DNA of 64,000 bases from a bacterium. GTDB taxonomy: Bacteria; Myxococcota; UBA727; JAUIJE01. Below, one piece after another: positions 6,960 to 28,536 of the stretch (the first letter of the stretch is position 1; every line of letters begins with the position of its first letter). Position numbers and translations under genes: made by a program. Under the pieces are notes generated by a model. The model searched no databases and was not told the DNA's origin. It saw only the letters and a list, made by a program, of their open reading frames with translations. Location of the stretch: assembly GCA_030431455.1 (NCBI GenBank), contig JAUIJE010000014.1, forward strand, positions 62,001 through 126,000, written 5' to 3'.

Positions 6960-7886
6960 CTAGGGCACGTAGCCGTCGGCTTCCATCATGAAGTTGTTGG
7001 GAAAGCCGAAGTCCGCGACCATGTCGTCCCAGGGATAGCCCGCGCCCTCGGTGGCGCTGTTGGACCAGAAATCCACCCCGGTCTGGGCCGAGCCTTCGTC
7101 ACAGTGTTCGAGACACAGTGAATAGCCACTGGACGCGGCCATGTGCACGCCAATGAAAATGGATTCGCCCGGGGCCAGCGTCACCGGCGGGTTGAGCTCG
7201 ACGGTGTAGACCCGCGAGGTCTGGACGTTGGCCTGCTGCGGTTGGTTCACGCTCTGCACCATGGTGGCGCTCGGCTGCGCGGGGGGCTGGGTGCCGCTGC
7301 CCACGAAGATGTCCACGGTGTGGGCCAGGCCCCCGGCGCATTGCGGATTGCCCAGGGGACCGGCCGTGCGGTACCGCACGGTGGTGACCACGAACGGGCC
7401 GCCGGGATCGAGACGGGTCGCGGCCACGTGGCCGGCCTCGGCGGGCAAGATGGGCCAGGTGGAGCCCGCCGTGCCCGCACAGGGAATCGACGTATTGGCC
7501 AACGTCATGAACACCACGTCGCCATCGCCATCGCCGTCGCCGTCTCCACCCCCCCCATCGCCGTCGCCGTCTCCGTCTCCATCCCCCCCATCGCCGTCGC
7601 CGTCGCCGTCTCCATCCCCCCCGTCGCCGTCTCCGTCTCCATCCCCCCCATCGCCATCGCCGTCGCCGTCTCCATCCCCCCCGTCGCCATCACCGCTCAA
7701 GGCCACGCACAACCCGCTGGCGCAGGTCAGGCCCGCGTCGCACGCGCCCCCGTCGGTGCAGGCACATGTCTCTGCACCGATGCGGCACTCGTCGTCGGGA
7801 TCCTGTGGGTTGCCATCGCCTCCCCCGTCACACGCGGACAGCCCCAGGACCAACACCGACACCACCCACCACATCGCTCGCTGCAT
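6960..7886 (-). CDS. Lipoprotein with GDGD linker and C-terminal beta domain
   Basis: 308 residues from the ATG at 7886, with GGAGG upstream. Layout: signal peptide with lipobox L-S-A-C (about residues 1-19); a Cys-rich segment of the C-x-D-G-x-x-C-x-x-G-L-x-C-x-x-G-x-C type (about 30-62) as seen in myxobacterial surface proteins; a Gly-Asp linker of about 60 residues encoded by a GAC/GAT-GGC microsatellite (about 7510-7695); then a domain of about 180 residues with T-V-D-I-F-V-G-S-G and G-E-S-I-F-I-G-V-H segments and one C-x-x-x-C. It is probably displayed on the cell surface. The linker acts as an acidic spacer and may bind calcium (inference). Function unknown. Confidence 0.75.
   Translation of the reverse strand: MQRAMWWVVSVLVLGLSACDGGGDGNPQDPDDECRIGAETCACTDGGACDAGLTCASGLCVALSGDGDGGDGDGDGDGDGGDGDGDGDGGDGDGDGDGDGGDGDGDGDGDGGGGDGDGDGDGDVVFMTLANTSIPCAGTAGSTWPILPAEAGHVAATRLDPGGPFVVTTVRYRTAGPLGNPQCAGGLAHTVDIFVGSGTQPPAQPSATMVQSVNQPQQANVQTSRVYTVELNPPVTLAPGESIFIGVHMAASSGYSLCLEHCDEGSAQTGVDFWSNSATEGAGYPWDDMVADFGFPNNFMMEADGYVP
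7510..7695. repeat. Gly-Asp coding microsatellite
   Basis: Imperfect tandem six-base units (plus strand CCGTCG/CCATCG with CCCCC interruptions) encoding GDGDGD...GGDGD on the minus strand. It is prone to length change by slippage in multiples of six, which keeps frame. Confidence 0.9.
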
Positions 7887-11414: not shown

Positions 11415-12314
<900 letters not shown>

Positions 12315-18028: not shown

Positions 18029-19192
18029 ATGGTGCGGTGGTGGAGCGGATGTGGGGCCTTGGCGCTGGGGACGTGGTGGTTGCTCGGGCTCAGCGCGTGC
18101 CCGGCGACGTGTGTGCCGGGCGAATCGCAAGCCTGCGCGTGCGACGACGGTGATGATGGGGCCCAGGTCTGTCTGGACGACGGCAGTTTTGGGGAATGTT
18201 CCTGCAACGGCGATGGCGATGGCGATGGCGATGGTGACGGTGATGGTGACGGCGACGGCGACGGCGATGGTGACGGTGACGGCGACGGTGACGGCGACGG
18301 TGACGGCGACGGTGACGGCGATGGTGAGGCCTTGGCGGGTGTGTCGTTCATGGAACGTTTTGTCGGGTTGTGGTCGGGGCCGGCGGACTCGAGCACCGCG
18401 CTCGGCGACTTCCCGATCATGACCATGGACGCGCGGCCCATCTCCGATCACACGCTGTTCGCGCGGGGTGACCTCGACGGGGACAACAGCATTCGATTCC
18501 TGTTCGACGTCGAGACCATCGACGGCGAGGACCTGTTCATCTACCGCAACGGGGGCTACTTCGCCGGCGCGCTGCGCGACTCGCGCACCAAGATCGAGAC
18601 CGCCGACCCGGTCAACGGCACCTATCGCTTCTGCGCCGTCCACGGTGGGTTCTGCAACCCCAACCCCGGCTGCGACTACATCGACGCCGTGTGGCAGTTC
18701 GACGGGGACGACAAGGTCAGCCTCGACGTGACCGTGTGTGGGCAGCCCCACGTATTGTGGCAAGCGGACCGCATCGAGACCCGCGACGCCCCGGCCCCGT
18801 TCCCGGTGGACCTGACCCCCCAGGACGACGGCACCGGCCCCTACCCGGACATGCCCAGCGTCGACGTGACCTTGGGGTGGAACGATCCTGCGCCCGCCGG
18901 CGCGCAGCTCATCCTGTCGCTGTCGGTGAGCCCCTGTCCGCTCAATCCCCTGTCGCCCTGCGCGGTGAGCCGCACCTTCCTCGTCATCCTCGCCGGGGGC
19001 GAAACCTCCACCGCGTTCACCCTCGATCAAGTGCACCCCGGCCCCTATTCGCTCAACGTGTTGTTCGACGCCGACGCCAACTTCTTCCCCAGCTCCGGTG
19101 ACCGCATCTCACCGTTCAACGCTTCGGTCACCGTCGACGCCGCCGGGGACAACACCATCAACACCACGGTCAACACCCCCCTCCCGTTCTAG
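18029..19192 (+). CDS. Lipoprotein with Cys module, GDGD linker and C-terminal beta domain
   Basis: 387 residues from the ATG at 18029 (GGGAGG upstream). Layout: signal peptide with lipobox L-S-A-C (about 21-24); a Cys module of the C-x-P-G-E-S-Q-A-C-A-C-D-D-G-x-x-G-A-Q-x-C type (about 28-58), widespread in myxobacterial surface proteins; a GDGD linker of about 40 residues; then about 280 residues of likely beta structure with segments such as H-T-L-F-A-R-G-D-L-D-G-D-N and a late domain resembling an Ig-like or carrier fold (D-V-T-L-G-W-N). It is probably surface-exposed. Activity unknown. Confidence 0.75.
   Translation: MVRWWSGCGALALGTWWLLGLSACPATCVPGESQACACDDGDDGAQVCLDDGSFGECSCNGDGDGDGDGDGDGDGDGDGDGDGDGDGDGDGDGDGDGDGEALAGVSFMERFVGLWSGPADSSTALGDFPIMTMDARPISDHTLFARGDLDGDNSIRFLFDVETIDGEDLFIYRNGGYFAGALRDSRTKIETADPVNGTYRFCAVHGGFCNPNPGCDYIDAVWQFDGDDKVSLDVTVCGQPHVLWQADRIETRDAPAPFPVDLTPQDDGTGPYPDMPSVDVTLGWNDPAPAGAQLILSLSVSPCPLNPLSPCAVSRTFLVILAGGETSTAFTLDQVHPGPYSLNVLFDADANFFPSSGDRISPFNASVTVDAAGDNTINTTVNTPLPF
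18205..18330. repeat. Gly-Asp coding microsatellite
   Basis: Tandem GGCGAT/GGTGAC six-base units on the plus strand encoding an uninterrupted GDGD run. This is the third such tract in the window, in a gene otherwise unrelated to the other two. Confidence 0.9.
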
Positions 19193-19305
19193 CCAGGGCG
19201 TCCGCGGCCCCGGCCGGCGTGGCGGGGACGAAACTGTGGCTGCACCCAGGCGGCGTGGCACACTCCGTGGACCGGTCGCGCCCCCCGGTTCTGCAGGAGT
19301 CCCTG

Positions 19306-20142
19306 ATGTCCGTTGCTGTGCTCTCCCGTCGGTTCGGCTTGGCCCTTTTCATGCTCGCGGCGGTCGGGCCGTCGTCGGGGGCATGGGCCGAGCCCCTCCC
19401 GCTCGGCGTACATTCCCTGTCGCCCCTCGACGAGACGCGGCTGCCGCCCAACCGTCCCCATGTCTACGGCGTGGGCGATCCGGAGTTCGGGGCGGAGGCC
19501 ACCGCCACGTGGTGCGACGATCCCGACGGCATCGGGGAGCCTTGCGAAGGGCAATCGATGGCCCGCGAGGCGCTCGTGTGCGACGACGACTACGGCTGCC
19601 TGTTTCGGTACCGGTTCCCCGGCGATTTGGTGCCGGGCACGGTGGTGCGCGTACAGCTCGAAAATCCCCCGCAGGGTTTTGCGTTCATCGAGGGCCGCTT
19701 CGGGGCCGACGCGTTCGACGACCCTGACGCGCCGTTGCTCGGCGCGCCCGACGTGCAGTTCGAGCCGACGGTGGTGGTCACGTCGATCAACGCGGTCGAC
19801 GACGGCGGGCTCGGCCACCTCCTGGTGTTCATGGGCGATGCCGACGAGGCGGAGCTGTCCCCGGTGACCGCGGTTCTGCCCGGCGCCAACGGCACACAAA
19901 GCCTGCGCACCGCGGTCGCGGACCCGGCCGAAGCCCGCGAGGTGTGTGTGCAGTACAGCGCGGTCGACCTCGCGGGCAACGAATCCCCACGCAGCGAGCG
20001 CGTGTGCGGCGAGGTGGGGGGCGCGATCCTCGGCGCGCTGGGGGGCTGCACCCACGTCGAGACCGGGCGCGGGGGGCCGGCGGGCGTGCTCGCGCTGGTG
20101 GCGCTCGGCTGGCGCACCCGTCGTCGTCGCCGCCGGGCCTAG
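19306..20142 (+). CDS. Secreted protein with MYXO-CTERM-like sorting tail
   Basis: 278 residues from the ATG at 19306 (CAGGAG upstream), with a Sec signal ending about A-W-A-E. The middle resembles an Ig-like/bacterial surface domain (P-x-N-R-P-H-V-Y-G-V-G-D, later V-D-L-A-G-N-E-S). The C-terminus has the tripartite layout of the MYXO-CTERM sorting signal: G-G-C, then a hydrophobic helix (G-V-L-A-L-V-A-L-G-W), then a run of eight basic residues. In that system the Cys is processed and the protein retained on the cell surface. It overlaps the convergent cytochrome gene by four bases at the stop codons. Confidence 0.75.
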   Translation: MSVAVLSRRFGLALFMLAAVGPSSGAWAEPLPLGVHSLSPLDETRLPPNRPHVYGVGDPEFGAEATATWCDDPDGIGEPCEGQSMAREALVCDDDYGCLFRYRFPGDLVPGTVVRVQLENPPQGFAFIEGRFGADAFDDPDAPLLGAPDVQFEPTVVVTSINAVDDGGLGHLLVFMGDADEAELSPVTAVLPGANGTQSLRTAVADPAEAREVCVQYSAVDLAGNESPRSERVCGEVGGAILGALGGCTHVETGRGGPAGVLALVALGWRTRRRRRRA

Positions 20143-21050
20143 CCCGCGGGCACCTCGGCCCAGAACACCCCGCGAAAATCACCCGCGGCATACCCGGTGG
20201 CGTGATCGTCCGGGTACTTCGCGGCCAGTTCGGCCTGTACGCCTGGGGCCAAATCCGTGCCGTGACATTGTAGACAGAGCGGCCCCACCGCGATGGGCTC
20301 GACGTAGCCGAGCCCGCCGCCGGGCAGGTCGGCGGTCAGATAGGGCACGTCCCGGGATTGTCCCAGGCTGCGCAACAGCGGCGCGGCCCACGCCGGGGGG
20401 GTGTTGCCCGGGTTGCGCAGCCGCTCGCTGGCGCGGCCCACCTTCACCGTGGTCGACGCCGCCTGCGCGATCTTGGGCGCGTCGAGGTGACAAGCGTCCA
20501 CCGCCCCGGCCGCGCCCTTGGCTTGGATGGCCTTTTGCAACGTACCCATCAGGCCCTGTTTGAGCGGGCCGAGCGCGGCTTTCCCCTTTTGGACCTGGGC
20601 GTCGTCGAGCGGGCGGGGGGCGGGGGGCGGCATCAACCGCGCGCTCAGGCCCGGGCGCCGTCCGCCTTCCTCCGCCCCGTAGTGGGTGGCGAGATAGCTG
20701 ACGATGGTGTGCTCGGTCTTTTCATCGAAGGGCCAAAGTCCCTGCGTCTTTTGCATCCAGCGGATGAGGCCCACCCAATGCTCTTCATCGCCGCGGTTCT
20801 GGATGACCAGCTTGGCACTGTGACAGACCGTGCACTGGCCTTTGACCAACTCGAACCCCTCGGCCACCACCAGCCCGGTGTCGGCGTCCACCGGGAGCGC
20901 GCCGGCTTTGTCCGACGGGGGGGCTTGGCCGAGCACCGGCCGGGCGGGGGCGGGGGCGGCCTGCACCGCCGGCGGGGGCGGGGGCGCGGCCGAGGGGGTA
21001 CAGGCGGAAAACGCCACCAAGCAGCCCAGGCCGAGGAGCACCCCGCGCAT
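20139..21050 (-). CDS. Sulfite dehydrogenase cytochrome subunit (SorB-like) fused to a Tll0287-like haem domain
   Basis: 303 residues. A lipoprotein-type signal (F-S-A-C, Cys about 17) and Pro/Ala linker precede a monohaem cytochrome c domain with C73-T-V-C-H77 and a later W-P-F-D-E-K-T-E segment, as in SorB-type partners of sulfite dehydrogenase. From about 155 to the end is a DUF3365/Tll0287-like domain with C-H-L-D-A-P-K-I-A, R-L-R-N-P-G-N-T-P-P-A-W and a second haem site C259-L-Q-C-H263. The ATG overlaps the SorA-like gene's TGA by one base, so the two are coupled. Predicted role: accept electrons from sulfite oxidation in the periplasm. Confidence 0.82.
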   Translation of the reverse strand: MRGVLLGLGCLVAFSACTPSAAPPPPPAVQAAPAPARPVLGQAPPSDKAGALPVDADTGLVVAEGFELVKGQCTVCHSAKLVIQNRGDEEHWVGLIRWMQKTQGLWPFDEKTEHTIVSYLATHYGAEEGGRRPGLSARLMPPPAPRPLDDAQVQKGKAALGPLKQGLMGTLQKAIQAKGAAGAVDACHLDAPKIAQAASTTVKVGRASERLRNPGNTPPAWAAPLLRSLGQSRDVPYLTADLPGGGLGYVEPIAVGPLCLQCHGTDLAPGVQAELAAKYPDDHATGYAAGDFRGVFWAEVPAG

Positions 21051-22291
21051 CACGAGACCCGCACCGCGATGCGGTGACACGCGTTGTTCAAGTATCCCTT
21101 GGGGTTCCAGCCGGGCACGACCATGGGCTGGCTTTGGCCGCGGGCGTCGGTGGCCCGGGCCCAGACCTCGTAGTAGCCGGCCTCGGGGAAGGCCACGCGG
21201 GTTTCGAAGTGCTGCCACGCGAGGCGGTTTTTGGCTTTGCGCAGCTTGGCCCGCTGCCAGGTGGCGCCGAAGTCGATGGACACCTCCACCTGTTTGACCG
21301 CGAGCTCGCCGGCCCAGGCGTGACCGCGCAGTGACATGGGTTTGCCCGCGGGGTGCACCAGGCCTGAGCCCGGAAACGTGATCAAGGACTTCACCGGCAT
21401 CGACTCGATGATGCACATCTCCTCGTCGGGCACGTCCTCCCCGGGGGCCACCGGGCGGCAGGGCACGCGGTAGGAATGGCCTTCCATCTTGGGCCCGTCG
21501 TGCACCCGATCGCGGACCGCCAAGCGGGTGAGCCACTTGCCCGAGGCCGAGGCGGGAAAGCCCCCCGCCACCAACCGCAAGGGGGCCCCGTGCAGCGCGG
21601 GGATGGCCTCGCCGTTCATGGCCCATGCCACCAATGTTTCTGGTTGGTTGGCTTTGGCCAGGGGCACCCCCCGGCTGATCACGACCTTGTCCTTGTTGCC
21701 CGACAGGTGGGTGTCCGCGCCGTAGTAGCCCACGTACTTGGCGTTGGGCTTGACCCCCGCGGCCTGGAGCACATCCCGCAGCCGCGCCCCGGTCCACTCC
21801 GCGCTCGACACCGCGCCGGTGGTCCATTGGTTGCCCTTGGCATTGGGCCGAAACTCCGCCCGGCCATTGCCGCCGCACTCCAACGTGAGCTGGTAGGTGT
21901 AGGCCCGAAATCGTTTCTGGAGCTCTTGGAGGGTCAAGGTCACCGGCGCGTTCACCGCTTCGCCGTCGATGGTCAGGGTCCAGGTCGCGGGGTCCACCGT
22001 TGCCGGGGCAATGCCATTGTTGCGCACAAACATGCGGTGCGCGGGGGTGATCTCGTCGTCGAGCAGATGGGCCGGGACCTCGGCGTTGAGGGGCCGGTCG
22101 TTGAGGGTGATGAGCCCTGGGTCCTTGCCCGCCAAGCCCTCGGCGGCGAGGGCCACGGGGACCAGACCCGCAGGGAAGTGTCGCGCGAACGGCACCGACA
22201 GGCCGAGCACGGTGCCCACCGCGGCCGCGCCGGAGTCGGCGAGAAAGCCGCGGCGCCCTTTGTGATACCGGGAACGGGGAGGTTGGGTCAT
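21050..22291 (-). CDS. Sulfite dehydrogenase molybdopterin subunit (SorA/SoxC/sulfite oxidase family)
   Basis: 413 residues. A twin-arginine-type leader (G-R-R-G-F-L-A-D-S-G-A-A-A-V-G) indicates export of a folded cofactor protein. Oxidoreductase molybdopterin domain about 75-270, with the cofactor Cys in T-L-E-C-G-G-N-G-R and the G-Y-Y-G-A-D and P-L-R-L-V-A-G-G-F segments. The C-terminal Mo-co dimerisation domain (about 290-410) has V-E-V-S-I-D-F-G-A-T-W and Y-E-V-W-A-R-A-T-D. It should oxidise sulfite to sulfate in the periplasm, passing electrons to the cytochrome encoded next. It lies 21 bases after the rhodanese-fusion gene in the sulfide operon. Confidence 0.9.
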   Translation of the reverse strand: MTQPPRSRYHKGRRGFLADSGAAAVGTVLGLSVPFARHFPAGLVPVALAAEGLAGKDPGLITLNDRPLNAEVPAHLLDDEITPAHRMFVRNNGIAPATVDPATWTLTIDGEAVNAPVTLTLQELQKRFRAYTYQLTLECGGNGRAEFRPNAKGNQWTTGAVSSAEWTGARLRDVLQAAGVKPNAKYVGYYGADTHLSGNKDKVVISRGVPLAKANQPETLVAWAMNGEAIPALHGAPLRLVAGGFPASASGKWLTRLAVRDRVHDGPKMEGHSYRVPCRPVAPGEDVPDEEMCIIESMPVKSLITFPGSGLVHPAGKPMSLRGHAWAGELAVKQVEVSIDFGATWQRAKLRKAKNRLAWQHFETRVAFPEAGYYEVWARATDARGQSQPMVVPGWNPKGYLNNACHRIAVRVS

Positions 22292-22312: not shown

Positions 22313-24166
22313 TCATGGGTGGGGGCCCAGGGCCACCGCCAATCCGAGGCGGCTGTACTCGGCCCACGACCCGTCGTAGTTGAGCAACCGGGACGCGTCG
22401 TGTCCCGCTTGCCACAAAGCAAAATAGAGAGCAGCCGAACGCGTGCCCGACTGGCAATAGGTCACCACCCGGGTCTCGGCCCGAATGCCGAGGGGGGCGA
22501 CGAGCGCGCGGATCTGGTCGGGGGGCAGCAGCCGGTGGGACTTATCGTCGAGCACCCGGGGCCAATCGAGATGGTGCGCCCCGGGGATGTGGCCCTTGGC
22601 CGCGGCCTTGCGATGCTGCTCTTCGCCGGTGTACTCGACCGCGCTGCGGGTATCGACCAAGGTCGCGCCATCCCAATGGGCATGCACCGTGGCCCAGCGC
22701 GATTGGTCGGGGCTGCCCTGGGCCACCACCCGCACGTCGCCGACCTTGGGCCAGAGGCCCTGGCCCTCGGCGACGCCGTGACCGGCCTGCTTCCAGGCCT
22801 GCAGGCCCCCGTCGAGCACCCGGGCGGGCCGATCCGTGAGGGTGCGCAGTGTCCACCACAGCCGGTAGGGCTCGGGCCCGCCGTCGCCGTAGAGCACGAG
22901 CACGCTGTCCTGGTTGACCCCGCGGGCCCGCAGCGCGGCCTGGAGCTCGGGCGCGGTCCGGGACAGCCCCGGAATGTCATTGTTGGCACTGTAATCGGGG
23001 CGGTCGATGCGCACCGCGCCCGGAATGTGGCCCATCTCGAAGCGGTCCGGCGGGCGCACGTCCAACAACACCAGATCCGGGGCGAGCAGGGCGGCCGCGA
23101 CCTCGTCCACGCTCGCCATCGCCTCGGGGTGGGCGTAGCCGGCGGCGCGGGCTTGGTGGCCCAAAGCGCCCAAAGCCGCCGCGGCCTCGTCGGGGGACGC
23201 GGGGTAATCGAAGTCGGTGCGGGGGGCGGGCTGGGACGCGGCCGCGACCTCGCCGCGCAACGGGGTGCTCATCGCCACCGGCGGCGGCTGGGCCAAGTAC
23301 CAACCGCCCGCGAGCAGGCCCGCGCCCACCAACGTCGGCAGCCACACCCGGTCCTGGGGCAGCCGGACGGGCCAGGCCATCTGGGCGAAGAATGTGTCGG
23401 GGAAGGTCTCGACCCCGTCGAACCCAATGTGACGGGGTGGCTCGTCGGGCATCTTGGCGGTGCCGAACACCCAATCCCAGATGGAAAAGATGATGCCGAA
23501 GTTGACCGTGGTCTTGCTGTCCCCGTCGTAGTCGTGGTGCCAGATGTGCATCCGGGGACTGTTGAGCACGTACTTGAGCGGACCCCAGTCGAGGTTGAGG
23601 TTGGCGTGGTTGAAGTGGCCGACGAGGGTGCCGAAGATGGCGTGGAACATCACCGCCTCGTAGCCGAACCCAAAGAACGCCAGGGGCAGGTAGAGCACGG
23701 ACTTGTAGACCACCACCTCGGTCCACTGAAACCGGAAGGAGACGATCCAGTCCATCTCCCCGTCCTGCACGCTGTGGTGGGTCTTGTGGAACTCCCAGAG
23801 CACCGGGACCCGGTGCAGGAGGTTGTGCACACACCATTGCAGGAAGTCGATCACCAACAGCGCGACCACGATCTGGACCCACACCGGCCACGATGCAGCC
23901 GCATTGCGGTAGACCCCTTCGTACAGGCCGCCGGCTTGCAGCGCGCGGTCGACGTGAGGGAGCACGCGGTGCACCGCGATCCCGTAGAGGATGACGCCGA
24001 GGAAGTGCCCGTTGAACACCAGGTGCAGCACGTCCGACCACAGCCGGGGCCGCAGCTGACGCTGGTCCCGGCGCCACGGGAAAACCCGCTCCAGCACCAC
24101 CAGCAACAACGAGATGCCGGCGAGCGAGAGCGGATAGAGGTAGGGCGAAAGCGCCGCCCAACTCAC
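22313..24166 (-). CDS. Fusion: membrane fatty-acid hydroxylase/sterol desaturase domain + tandem rhodanese
   Basis: 617 residues from a GTG at 24166 that overlaps the preceding stop (GTGA). The N-terminal 290 residues form a fatty acid hydroxylase/sterol desaturase domain: several membrane helices and the His clusters H-N-L-L-H (114-118), H-K-T-H-H (127-131), H-F-N-H (184-187) and H-I-W-H-H (207-211) that would bind two irons. After one more helix (about 276-292) come two rhodanese modules. The first (about 345-455) has no Cys at the active-site loop; the second (about 480-605) has C-Q-S-G-T-R-S. The rhodanese part may transfer sulfane sulfur to sulfite or thiols. The purpose of the membrane di-iron domain here is unknown. 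Confidence 0.88.
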   Translation of the reverse strand: MSWAALSPYLYPLSLAGISLLLVVLERVFPWRRDQRQLRPRLWSDVLHLVFNGHFLGVILYGIAVHRVLPHVDRALQAGGLYEGVYRNAAASWPVWVQIVVALLVIDFLQWCVHNLLHRVPVLWEFHKTHHSVQDGEMDWIVSFRFQWTEVVVYKSVLYLPLAFFGFGYEAVMFHAIFGTLVGHFNHANLNLDWGPLKYVLNSPRMHIWHHDYDGDSKTTVNFGIIFSIWDWVFGTAKMPDEPPRHIGFDGVETFPDTFFAQMAWPVRLPQDRVWLPTLVGAGLLAGGWYLAQPPPVAMSTPLRGEVAAASQPAPRTDFDYPASPDEAAAALGALGHQARAAGYAHPEAMASVDEVAAALLAPDLVLLDVRPPDRFEMGHIPGAVRIDRPDYSANNDIPGLSRTAPELQAALRARGVNQDSVLVLYGDGGPEPYRLWWTLRTLTDRPARVLDGGLQAWKQAGHGVAEGQGLWPKVGDVRVVAQGSPDQSRWATVHAHWDGATLVDTRSAVEYTGEEQHRKAAAKGHIPGAHHLDWPRVLDDKSHRLLPPDQIRALVAPLGIRAETRVVTYCQSGTRSAALYFALWQAGHDASRLLNYDGSWAEYSRLGLAVALGPHP

Positions 24167-25248
24167 CCGTGGGCCTCGGTGCTTTCGGTGGGGGCGTCGA
24201 GGCCGTTGTGGAAGATGGGCAGACCTTCGTCGTTCCAGCGGAGCATGCCGCCGTTCATGGACACCGCGTGGGCAAAGCCCATCTCCTTCATCATCATCGC
24301 GGCCTTGCCCGAGCGTCCGCCCGAGCGGCACACGAGCACGTAGGTGTCGTCCTTGTCCCAGCCTTCGGCGGCGCCCATCAGCTCGGGGAGGGGCACGAGC
24401 TCAGAGTGCAGCACGTGCCCCAGTGGGCCCCAGAACTCGTCGGGGCCACGCACGTCGACGATCTTGACCTCGCCCTTTTTGCCCAGCACCCAGCGGGGGG
24501 TGACCTCGGGGACCCCGGTGGCGGAGATGCGCACGTTGGCCCAGTCCCCGCTCATGTCGAGGATGCCGCACTGGAGGTTGAGCGGGAGCGCCTCATCGAT
24601 AAACCGTGGATAGGCAAGCTTGAGGTTGTCCATGATGGTCAAAAACTCCGCCTCGGTGACCTTCAGGCCCACCCGGGGGTTGTGTTCTTTTTCGTGGGCC
24701 ACCGTGGTCTGGGTGCGGCCCTTGTAGTCGTGGCCGGGGTAGAGGGTGAAGTCGTCGGGCAGGCTGAAGATCTGGTCGCGCACGGACTTGAACAACGTGG
24801 TCGCGTCCCCTTGTTGGAAGTCGGTGCGCCCCGAGCCTTCGATGAGCAAGGTGTCGCCGGTGAACGCGGCTTTGGCGTCGGGCACGACGTAGGTCATGCA
24901 CCCCGCGGTGTGACCGGGGGTGGCCCGGGCCTCGAGGGTGTGGTGGCCGAAGGTGAGGGTCTGGCCGTGGTCGAGCGAGAGGTTGGCGCAGCTGACTCCG
25001 GCTTTGGCGGACACCCCGGTCTGGCCCCCGTGGGTCTTTTGCAGCAGGCCCGCGCCGGTGACGTGGTCGGCGTGCACGTGGGTGTCGAGCAGGTACTTGA
25101 GGTTGAAGCCCTCGTCGTCGAGCAGCGCGCGGTAGTTGTCGAGCTGTTCGCGCACGGGGTCGATGATCACCGCTTCCTTGGTGGTCTCGTCCGCGAGGAC
25201 GTAGGTGAAGGTGCTGGTGGCGTCGTCGAAGAGTTGGCGGAAATACAT
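24163..25248 (-). CDS. Persulfide dioxygenase (ETHE1-like) - rhodanese fusion
   Basis: 361 residues from the ATG at 25248 (CAGGAG upstream). The metallo-beta-lactamase-fold domain (about 1-235) has T-H-V-H-A-D-H, P-G-H-T-A-G-C and G-D-T-L-L-I-E-G-S-G-R-T-D-F, diagnostic for the ETHE1 persulfide dioxygenase branch (mononuclear iron). The rhodanese domain (about 255-350) carries active-site C-R-S-G-G-R-S. It converts glutathione persulfide to sulfite, and the rhodanese may load persulfide or form thiosulfate. It is first gene of the four-gene minus-strand operon, behind a sigma-54 promoter at 25315-25330, and divergent from the SQR operon. Confidence 0.93.
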   Translation of the reverse strand: MYFRQLFDDATSTFTYVLADETTKEAVIIDPVREQLDNYRALLDDEGFNLKYLLDTHVHADHVTGAGLLQKTHGGQTGVSAKAGVSCANLSLDHGQTLTFGHHTLEARATPGHTAGCMTYVVPDAKAAFTGDTLLIEGSGRTDFQQGDATTLFKSVRDQIFSLPDDFTLYPGHDYKGRTQTTVAHEKEHNPRVGLKVTEAEFLTIMDNLKLAYPRFIDEALPLNLQCGILDMSGDWANVRISATGVPEVTPRWVLGKKGEVKIVDVRGPDEFWGPLGHVLHSELVPLPELMGAAEGWDKDDTYVLVCRSGGRSGKAAMMMKEMGFAHAVSMNGGMLRWNDEGLPIFHNGLDAPTESTEAHG

Positions 25249-25542: not shown

Positions 25543-26229
25543 ATGGTGTCCACAACCTCGAGCGGCAACCGCCGGCTGGCGATCCCCGACGACCCGGTCC
25601 TGGCCACGTTGCTGCGCATCGAGTCGCGGCTCGACAACCTCGAGACCCGCCTGGCCCCGGTGCTGGACGCCGTCGACCAACTGCCCGGCGCGTTGGGCAT
25701 GGCCGTCGACAAACTCGACGAGTTCGGCGCGCGCACCGGCGACCTCGACGAACGGTTCACCCGGCTGATGGCCCTGGCGGAAAAGCTCACCGAGCCCGCG
25801 GTCCTCGACCAGCTGTTCGGCCTGCTCGACATCGCCGGCAAAGCCCCCGGCACCACCGCCACCACCGTGGACATCATCGACGCCTTCGTGGCCCGGGCCG
25901 AGGCCGAAGGGGTCCAGGTCGACGAGGTGATCAAAAACGCCGACGCCACCGTGCACATGGTGCTGCGCCTGGTGCAAAACCAACAGCTGCAGGAGATCCT
26001 GCGCACCGGCGCCCTCGAGGCCGCCATCCTCGGGGTGGTGCAGTCGTTGGCCGGGGCCAAAGAAGCCGTGCGCCACGAACACATCGGCTTTTTCGGGTTC
26101 TTCCGGCTCTTGCGCGAGCCCGAGATTCAAATGGCATTGAACGCGGGGGTCAGCGCCGCCCGCAGCGTCGGCAGCGCCCTCGGCGGCTCTGCCCCTTCCA
26201 AACAACTGGGACCCAAAAACGACGCCTGA
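25543..26229 (+). CDS. DUF1641-family protein, partner of sulfide:quinone oxidoreductase
   Basis: 228 residues, soluble and highly helical. The N-terminal part (about 20-95) has heptad-like Leu/Asp repeats ([21 protein letters not shown]). The C-terminal part (about 130-205), with [22 protein letters not shown] and N-A-G-V-S, fits DUF1641. That family is commonly encoded next to sulfide:quinone oxidoreductases and some formate dehydrogenases; its biochemical role is not established. It is 30 bases upstream of the SQR gene in the same operon. Confidence 0.85.
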
Positions 26230-26259: not shown

Positions 26260-27450
26260 ATGAGCGAACACAAACACTCCATCGTCATCGTCGGCGGCGG
26301 CACCGCGGGCATCTCCGTGGCCGCGCGTCTCGCCAAGTCCGCCCCCAAGCCGGACATCGCCATCATCGAGCCCTCCGAGAAGCACCACTACCAGCCCCTG
26401 TGGACCCTGGTGGGGGGCGGGGTGTTCGACCGGGAGGTCACCGAGCGGGACGAGGCCGACCTCATCCCCGACGACGTCACCTGGATCCGAGAAAAGGCCA
26501 AGACCTTCGAGCCCGAGAAGAACCAAGTGACATTGGCGAATGGCGACGTGGTCAAGTACGACCAGCTCATCGTGGCCGCCGGCATCCAGCTCAACTGGGA
26601 CAAGGTGAAGGGGCTCAAGGATGCCCTGGGCAAAGACGGGGTCACCTCCAACTACGACTACAACACCGTGTCCAAGACCTGGGACTTCATCCGCACCTTC
26701 CCCGGGGGCAACGCGGTGTTCACCTTCCCCGCCACCCCCATCAAGTGCGCGGGGGCGCCGCAGAAGATCATGTACCTCGCGGAGGAGGCGTTCCGGCGCC
26801 AAGGGGTGCGCGAGAAGTCCAATGTGATTTACGCGACCGCCACCGCGGGCATGTTCGGCATTCCCCGGTACAAAAAGGTGCTCGACGGCATCGTCGCGGA
26901 CCGGGGCATCGAGCCAAAGTTCAACCAGAACCTGATCGAGATTCGCCCCGGATCCAAAGAGGCGGTGTTCGCGGATGTGGCCGGGGGTGACGAGCTGGTG
27001 CTCAACTACCAAATGATCCACGTGACCCCGCCCCAGAGCGCGCCAGGGTTTATTGTGGAGAGCCCCCTGGCGGGCGACGGCGGTTGGGTGGCGGTGGACA
27101 AACACACCATGCAGCACGACAAGTACGAGAACGTCTTTTCGCTCGGCGACTGCAGCAGCTTGCCCTGTTCGAAGACCGGGGCCGCGATCCGCAAACAGGC
27201 CCCGATCCTCGTCGAGAACGTGCTCGCGTTCCGCAAGGGCCAAACGCTCACCGGCAAGTACGACGGCTATGCCTCGTGCCCGCTGGTCACCGGCTATGGC
27301 CGGGTGGTGCTCGCGGAGTTTGGCTACGACGGCAAAATCATGGAGACCTTCCCCATGAGCCAAGCCAAAGAACGGTTCTCGATGTACGCGCTCAAGGCCC
27401 ACATGCTCCCCGACCTCTATTGGCACGGGATGCTCAAGGGCCGGATGTGA
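26260..27450 (+). CDS. sqr: Type II sulfide:quinone oxidoreductase
   Basis: 396 residues. The N-terminal FAD-binding V-G-G-G-T-A-G-I-S and the [15 protein letters not shown] stretch are SQR hallmarks. The two redox Cys sit in K-C-A-G-A-P-Q-K (C163) and S-C-P-L-V-T-G-Y (C340), the same contexts as in the mitochondrial-type (type II) enzyme. [15 protein letters not shown] is the second FAD-contact region. It oxidises sulfide at the membrane, passing electrons to quinone and sulfane sulfur to a thiol acceptor, the substrate for the divergently encoded dioxygenase. The ATG has GAGGA upstream. Confidence 0.94.
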
Positions 27451-27534: not shown

Positions 27535-28512
27535 TCAGTGTCGCTTGGCGCGAGGCCAGCTCAGGTTGGCCTCGCGCATTTTTCTCCACAGCGTCGAGCG
27601 GCTCATGCCCAAGATCTCGGCCGCTTGTTCGCGGTCGCCCTGGGCCCGGGTCAAGGCCCGGCGCATGCGCTCCACCTCCGACGGGGCGGGGCTGCCCTTT
27701 TGGTTGGGCGGGGCTTCGCCCCGCAGCTCGGGGGGGAGCGCGTCGAGACCGATGATGGGCCCATCGGTCATCACCACCGCGTACTCCATGACATTGCGCA
27801 GCTCCCGCACGTTGCCCGGCCAGTCGTAGGACACCAGCGCGTCGAAGGCGTCGGCCTCGATGCCCTCGATGGCGAAGTCCCCCTCGCTCTTCGAAAACTC
27901 CCCGATGAGGTGGAACGCCAGCGCCTCGATGTCGCCGGTGCGTTCGCGCAGGGCGGGCAAGAAGATGGGCAGGACCCGGATGCGGAACATCAGGTCGCGG
28001 CGGAACTTGTTGGCGTCGGCCGCGTCGCGCAACGAGACGTGGGTGGCGCTGACCACCCGCACATCGATGGAGACCTTTTCGCTGCCCCCGAGGGGGACGA
28101 ACTCGCGCTCCTGCAGCACCCGCAGCAGCCGGGCCTGGATGTCCAGTGGCATTTCGGCGATCTCATCCAGAAACACTGTGCCCTGGTCGGCGAGCCGGAA
28201 CAGGCCCTTGCGGTCTCGCACCGCCCCGGTGAACGCGCCCCGCACATGGCCGAACAGCTCGGAGGCGAGCATCTCCCCGGTGAGGGACGCACAGTTGACC
28301 GCGTAAAAGGGGGCCTTGTCCCGTCGCGAGAGCTGGTGGATGGCCCGGGCCGCGAGCTCCTTGCCGGTGCCGGTCTCGCCCCGGATGAGCACGCTGGCCT
28401 CGGCCCGGGCGGCCTTTTCCAGGGTCTCGAAAAAATCGTTCATCTCCGGGGCCACGGTGAGCATGCCGAAGACGTTGCGCGGGGGTGTGCGGGGGGCTCG
28501 ACGGATGGCCAT
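27535..28512 (-). CDS. Sigma-54 activator (AAA+ plus Fis-type HTH) without sensory domain
   Basis: 325 residues from the ATG at 28512 (a GTG five codons upstream is possible). The AAA+ domain starts almost at once (about 15-250): Walker A G-E-T-G-T-G-K-E, the sigma-54-contacting G-A-F-T-G-A loop, [10 protein letters not shown] and an arginine-finger region. The C-terminal Fis-type HTH (about 280-320) has [16 protein letters not shown]. No receiver, GAF, PAS or Cys-rich sulfur-sensing N-terminus exists. Only one Cys is visible, in the ordinary A-V-N-C-A-S-L position. Its gene faces the SQR operon and carries the same 10-bp motif in its leader, so it most likely controls the sulfide genes. Confidence 0.88.
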
Positions 28513-28516
28513 GACC

Positions 28517-28536
28517 TGTTGCAACACGTTGCGACG
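28517..28536. promoter_or_regulatory. Activator autoregulation site
   Basis: TGTTGCAACA (28517-28526, a perfect palindrome) is followed directly by CGTTGCGACG (28527-28536). This is the same 10-base module and spacing as at 25400-25419. It lies just upstream of the activator's ATG and would cover its ribosome-binding region, suggesting autorepression. Confidence 0.65.

Follow-up and report, generated by a model that had tools for sequence, protein, structure and literature searches.

A single open reading frame in the window, the 64,000-nucleotide stretch of bacterial DNA analysed here, joins a putative di-iron lipid hydroxylase to a tandem rhodanese, and this hydroxylase-rhodanese fusion is real and conserved. 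Outside the window, 30 further distinct loci carry the same architecture in frame, and the neighbours conserved around it are a GH113-like protein and a sulfite dehydrogenase, not sulfide-oxidation genes in general. Both parts come from known families; the open-access papers searched appear to contain no description of the architecture, its predicted topology or its gene set. An earlier note on this DNA had named no described enzyme of this build. Annotation by a single domain would label such a protein either as a 'sterol desaturase' or as a 'rhodanese' and miss the combination of a presumed lipid-modifying di-iron enzyme with a sulfur carrier on the same polypeptide. Its role can be put to the test through the two partners that recur beside it.

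Architecture of the fusion gene and its operon

The GTG start of the fusion gene lies at 24166 and overlaps by 4 nucleotides the TGA of the upstream persulfide dioxygenase (PDO) gene, while its stop ends at 22313, 21 bases from the SorA gene, which in turn shares 1 base with the cytochrome gene. The PDO, fusion, SorA and cytochrome genes form an operon of four tightly packed genes, divergent from genes for a DUF1641 protein and sulfide:quinone oxidoreductase (SQR). The features are as follows.

22313..24166, minus strand: fusion gene, FA_hydroxylase domain, fifth membrane helix (TM5), linker and tandem rhodanese; 617 aa, GTG start, single frame
23282..24166, minus strand: hydroxylase part, residues 1-295; Pfam match, histidine boxes H114/118, H127/130/131, H184/187 and H207/210/211, pLDDT 91.9
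23291..23344, minus strand: TM5, residues 275-292; hydropathy and charge profile, helix in both models
23150..23287, minus strand: linker, residues 294-339; conserved TPMxGExxAxSQP in the alignment, disordered core
22787..23110, minus strand: first rhodanese domain, residues 353-460; Asp428 replaces the catalytic Cys (Pfam and alignment)
22352..22669, minus strand: second rhodanese domain, residues about 500-605; catalytic loop C571QSGTRS (Pfam and alignment)
24163..25248, minus strand: PDO with C-terminal rhodanese (Lactamase_B and Rhodanese); best NCBIfam model is sulfur transferase/dioxygenase Blh, far under its cut-off
21050..22291, minus strand: SorA-type molybdenum sulfite dehydrogenase, Tat-exported; Mo-ligand Cys and twin-arginine signal in the sequence
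20139..21050, minus strand: c-type cytochrome with a SorB-like and a Tll0287-like haem domain; SorB 32 bits, under cut-off
25543..26229, plus strand: DUF1641 protein, divergent from the fusion operon
26260..27450, plus strand: SQR, nearest to type III, at 241 bits against a cut-off of 525

The earlier note had described one frame with these exact coordinates, running from a hydroxylase into two rhodanese modules, and the Pfam matches and the uninterrupted 617 codons bear this out. The neighbours that it named, a persulfide dioxygenase, a sulfite dehydrogenase and SQR, are also correct: the first is the PDO-rhodanese gene upstream, the second the SorA-type gene downstream, and the SQR gene is divergent. 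The window SorA gene reaches 230.8 bits against the SorA equivalog cut-off of 600, which is nevertheless its best-scoring model. The pairing of SorB-like and Tll0287-like haem domains in the cytochrome is apparently uncommon for the partner of a sulfite dehydrogenase. Beside SQR lies a sigma-54 activator (27535-28527, minus strand) with an AAA+ domain, a Fis-type HTH and little or no sensor domain, and the L065/L152 and L150 stretches, each with a fused gene, also encode a related regulator. Elsewhere in the window, several secreted or lipoprotein-like genes (18113-19192, 6960-7706 and 11415-12290) encode long (Gly-Asp)n repeats close to the N-terminus, and the product of 19219-20142 (plus strand) ends in a Cys, a hydrophobic stretch and an Arg cluster that by eye resemble a MYXO-CTERM-type sorting signal.

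The hydroxylase and rhodanese halves

Residues 100-236 match Pfam FA_hydroxylase (PF04116) at 100.1 bits, above the gathering cut-off of 31. The histidines fall into the clusters H114-x3-H118, H127-x2-H130-H131, H184-x2-H187 and H207-x2-H210-H211, of which the third is additional to those quoted in the earlier note, and all ten are conserved without exception across 41 relatives, fused and unfused. Modelled alone, the half gives a confident structure (pLDDT 91.9, pTM 0.87), for which no PDB fold match was found below E 2; nor was there a sequence-profile match to a solved structure, and membership of the superfamily is therefore assigned from the Pfam score together with the histidines. The nearest NCBIfam model, OlsE (NF052566), scores 90.7 bits against a cut-off of 475. 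On these features the half is a putative di-iron lipid hydroxylase that looks active.

Pfam Rhodanese (PF00581) matches two stretches of the C-terminal half, at 116 bits against a cut-off of 22. The second domain carries the loop CQSGTRS, invariant in 28 aligned fused proteins, with C571 at the position of the catalytic Cys, in agreement with the Cys active site proposed earlier. The first domain has an invariant Asp (D428) at that position in the same alignment and is presumably inactive. The non-catalytic first domain of two-domain sulfurtransferases usually lacks the Cys, and the half shows the tandem folds and the restriction of the catalytic Cys to the second domain that characterize these enzymes (TST/MST). 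It resembles the thiosulfate sulfurtransferase 1uar by sequence (E 9e-27) and both 3p3a and 1uar by fold (TMt 0.83-0.84). In its C-x4-R shape the loop CQSGTR follows those of 1uar and Azotobacter RhdA and departs from the CGSGVT of 3-mercaptopyruvate enzymes, and the SseA model NF008557 reaches 87.7 bits, below its cut-off of 250. The rhodanese half therefore has the look of an active sulfurtransferase, as judged from its motifs and fold. Between close pairs, dN/dS is well below 1 in the hydroxylase, the linker and both rhodanese domains, the mark of purifying selection; these are simple Nei-Gojobori estimates, less reliable for the divergent pair of the window and L153. In every pair compared, dN is lower in the hydroxylase half than in the rhodanese half.

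Distribution and origin of the fusion

A scan with the hydroxylase half, using one genome per species, yielded 33 loci, and further whole-genome searches added fused loci. The frame runs on into the tandem rhodanese in 25 of the 33 scan loci, L074 being cut by a contig end, and two genomes hold two fused copies each. The motif TPMxGExxAxSQP follows TM5 in nearly all fused proteins. A misjoined contig at the junction, a danger raised in the earlier note, is ruled out because the same in-frame junction with its conserved linker recurs in the 30 other loci. The second danger raised there, that homologues are two separate and unlinked proteins, is rejected within the searched genomes: unfused relatives have no linked rhodanese, and the best rhodanese matches in their genomes are just 30-37% identical, leaving no close separate partner in those examined. 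An apparent split gene in G471 was discarded since the gene is cut by contig ends.

Carriers are mostly metagenome-assembled genomes labelled Myxococcales, Myxococcota, Sandaracinaceae or Deltaproteobacteria. The 195 genomes searched from the phylum of the window yielded a single close hydroxylase, an unfused one, so the window copy is isolated in its own phylum and may have been acquired by horizontal transfer. A search of 9 genomes from a phylum in which a distant unfused relative occurs yielded no fusion. The fused state takes 7 changes on a tree of the hydroxylase part, as against 15 in shuffles. One gain followed by several losses is the simplest reading of a tree that alone cannot tell gain from loss. 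Unfused members inside the fused clade mostly end just past TM5, and L054, L137, L142, L084 and L059/L063/L069, most of which lie inside that clade, are read as losses and not as ancestors. L142 (6417-7631, minus strand), the unfused sister of the fused L149, has an (SHSC)n repeat tail at the position of the rhodanese and is probably a decayed fusion. In some fusion-carrying genomes a hydroxylase paralogue without the rhodanese is kept as well, some 2 kb downstream from a PDO-like gene (L144, 7095-7874; L143, 7070-7843; 52-54% identity).

Predicted membrane topology

The full-length model, built from the 28-sequence alignment, has a mean pLDDT of 84.7, falling below 50 at residues 296-302 and 307-317 of the linker, which is flexible and about 45 residues long. 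The loop that follows TM1 is rich in Lys and Arg (4.2 per sequence), as is the region of the histidine boxes; fewer occur in the TM2-TM3 loop and beyond TM5. Hydropathy, positive-inside charge and the assumption that the domain follows its superfamily together predict an N-out protein with four membrane passes and cytoplasmic histidine boxes, in which TM5 leads to a periplasmic rhodanese, and the membrane helices agree with those of the models. The rhodanese half has no signal peptide of its own. TM5 is retained in relatives that lack the rhodanese and so did not arise solely for rhodanese export.

Conserved gene neighbourhood

Neighbours were compared at 26 fused and 18 unfused loci, each with at least 2.5 kb downstream, and genes in GC-rich loci were called by codon scoring. 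Two neighbours tell fused from unfused loci almost perfectly. A GH113-like secreted protein is adjacent in 25 of 26 fused and 0 of 18 unfused loci (Fisher p about 2e-11), and a sulfite dehydrogenase gene occurs no more than 4.5 kb away in 19 of 26 and 0 of 18, respectively (p about 8e-7), p-values that overstate the evidence because the loci are related. L051, the sole fused locus without an adjacent GH113, has masked bases. The GH113-like protein scores 151 bits to PF22612, and proteins of this kind clearly match GH113 mannanase structures, with signal-like N-termini and, in most, the conserved acid/base Glu. GH113 was looked for in the window operon and is not there; the nearest homologue in the window genome (53% identity) lies on a separate contig, in a gene context unrelated to this one.

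The neighbouring sulfite dehydrogenases have the molybdenum Cys, often a lipobox-like Cys and often a fused c-type haem, and a Tat motif is recognisable in 19 of the 21 scanned. A representative scores 519 bits to SorT and has a SorU-like tail that reaches the SorU cut-off. A sulfite dehydrogenase is missing from the surroundings of seven of the 26 fused loci, five of which carry an ArsR-rhodanese regulator in its stead. As sulfur genes accompany the fused and not the unfused loci, it is the rhodanese half, not the hydroxylase, that travels with them. The sulfide-operon setting described in the earlier note is correct for the window genome but hardly extends beyond it: PDO adjoins the fusion in only one other locus, L150 (49% identity), and the SQR link is seen only in the window. 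In several loci, fused and unfused alike, the gene just upstream of the hydroxylase encodes a conserved protein that has a lipase-like SHSKGG motif but matches no Pfam family (L079, 4745-5932; L047, 4866-5984; L058; L137).

Proposed function and alternatives

The reading preferred here, held with about even confidence, is that the protein is a membrane-anchored periplasmic thiosulfate/persulfide sulfurtransferase that works with the sulfite dehydrogenase and is fused to a putative lipid hydroxylase. The fusion, the conserved active sites of both halves and the recurrent neighbours are observations; for this model we infer the topology, the metals, thiosulfate as the donor and the direction of the reaction. 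The N-terminal half would be a di-iron hydroxylase with its metal site facing the cytoplasm, probably hydroxylating a membrane lipid, a substrate proposed because it is the default for the FA_hydroxylase superfamily. TM5 would cross the inner membrane so that the two-domain sulfurtransferase hangs in the periplasm, its first domain structural and its second catalytic. There it would transfer sulfane sulfur from thiosulfate to a thiol or back, with sulfite as product or substrate, and the exported sulfite dehydrogenase (SorA/SorB in the window, SorT-SorU fusions elsewhere) would oxidize sulfite to sulfate with transfer of electrons to cytochrome c, thereby pulling the reaction. In the window genome SQR and PDO would tie the module to sulfide oxidation. 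The two halves would share one process or place without handing substrate to each other. The earlier suggestion of a supply of sulfane sulfur at the membrane survives, with the supply predicted on the periplasmic side.

The periplasmic PspE of E. coli converts thiosulfate to persulfide and sulfite (PMC10215317), and SorT/SorU is a periplasmic sulfite-oxidising pair (PMC4760952). Conversion of thiosulfate to persulfide is unfavourable unless products are removed (PMC10215317), which counts against the sulfurtransferase model, as do the absence of a signal peptide from the rhodanese half, the retention of TM5 in relatives without a rhodanese, the seven fused loci that lack a sulfite dehydrogenase and the near-universal GH113 neighbour, to which the model gives no role. 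If correct, it would give sulfide/thiosulfate oxidation in Myxococcota a periplasmic, membrane-anchored step and would account for a sulfurtransferase being kept beside an exported sulfite dehydrogenase in the carrier bacteria.

The constancy of the GH113-like neighbour suggests that an envelope (glyco)lipid or glycan is involved, and a possible but clearly less probable alternative starts from this hint. The hydroxylase and the GH113-like protein would make or reshape a (glyco)lipid of the cell surface. The periplasmic rhodanese, together with the sulfite dehydrogenase, would protect this lipid or add or remove sulfur, for example in a thiolated or sulfonated lipid, with released sulfite disposed of by the dehydrogenase. 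The constancy of GH113, the signal-like N-termini, acid/base Glu and mannanase match of these proteins, the lipase-like gene that precedes the fusion in some loci and the role of Sinorhizobium SorT in detoxifying sulfite derived from organosulfonates (PMC4760952) all favour this alternative. Against it, GH113 is unlinked in the window, and the gene clusters seen in the neighbourhood include no recurrent glycosyltransferase, sulfonate transporter or enzyme of sulfur activation. A bolder version, which we regard as unlikely, makes the fusion, the GH113-like protein and the sulfite dehydrogenase one undescribed envelope pathway, in which a (glyco)lipid would be hydroxylated on the cytoplasmic side and modified or repaired with sulfane sulfur in the periplasm; if true, lipid oxidation and sulfur metabolism would be joined across the membrane by one polypeptide.

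It is improbable that the hydroxylase half now serves mainly as an anchor and exporter for the rhodanese, its chemistry being incidental or unrelated to sulfur. Unfused relatives are widespread without sulfur or GH113 neighbours, which implies a hydroxylase reaction independent of the rhodanese, and the active sites are predicted on opposite sides; a mere anchor, however, would have no need of ten histidines invariant in the fused proteins or of a dN below that of the rhodanese half. Most improbable of all is direct coupling, in which di-iron oxidation and sulfur transfer on the same lipid give a sulfur-modified lipid: covalent fusion and the co-conservation of both active sites speak for it, but the predicted separation of those sites on opposite membrane faces, the flexible linker of low model confidence and the persistence of the hydroxylase without a rhodanese in many genomes argue against it, and with it against the earlier proposals that one reaction couples lipid oxidation to sulfur transfer or that the protein itself makes a sulfur-modified lipid.

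Comparison with known systems

With the FA_hydroxylase/sterol desaturase superfamily the window protein shares the histidine boxes, membrane helices and domain length, and it adds TM5 and the fused rhodanese; its score to OlsE is too low for it to be OlsE. The rhodanese half has the tandem fold, inactive first domain and second-domain Cys of the Thermus thermophilus rhodanese 1uar, Azotobacter RhdA (1e0c) and E. coli SseA (1urh), together with their NYDGSWxEY end motif. It differs from these two-domain enzymes in being tethered to the membrane behind a hydroxylase, and its CQSGTRS loop, invariant among the fusions, differs from the loops of the aligned solved structures. An extracytoplasmic location, predicted for the rhodanese half of the fusion, is common to E. 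coli PspE and YnjE, which are free and not membrane-fused, PspE being single-domain. The recurrent sulfite dehydrogenase is of the same kind as SorT/SorU and SorA/SorB, with SorT and a SorU-like cytochrome forming one polypeptide in many fused loci, and we know of no report of these enzymes accompanying a hydroxylase-rhodanese fusion. The PDO-rhodanese fusions of bacterial sulfide oxidation, one of which adjoins the window gene upstream, likewise join a rhodanese to an oxygenase of a sulfur pathway, but their oxygenase is soluble, has the metallo-beta-lactamase fold and acts on sulfur itself, unlike the hydroxylase of the fusion described here.
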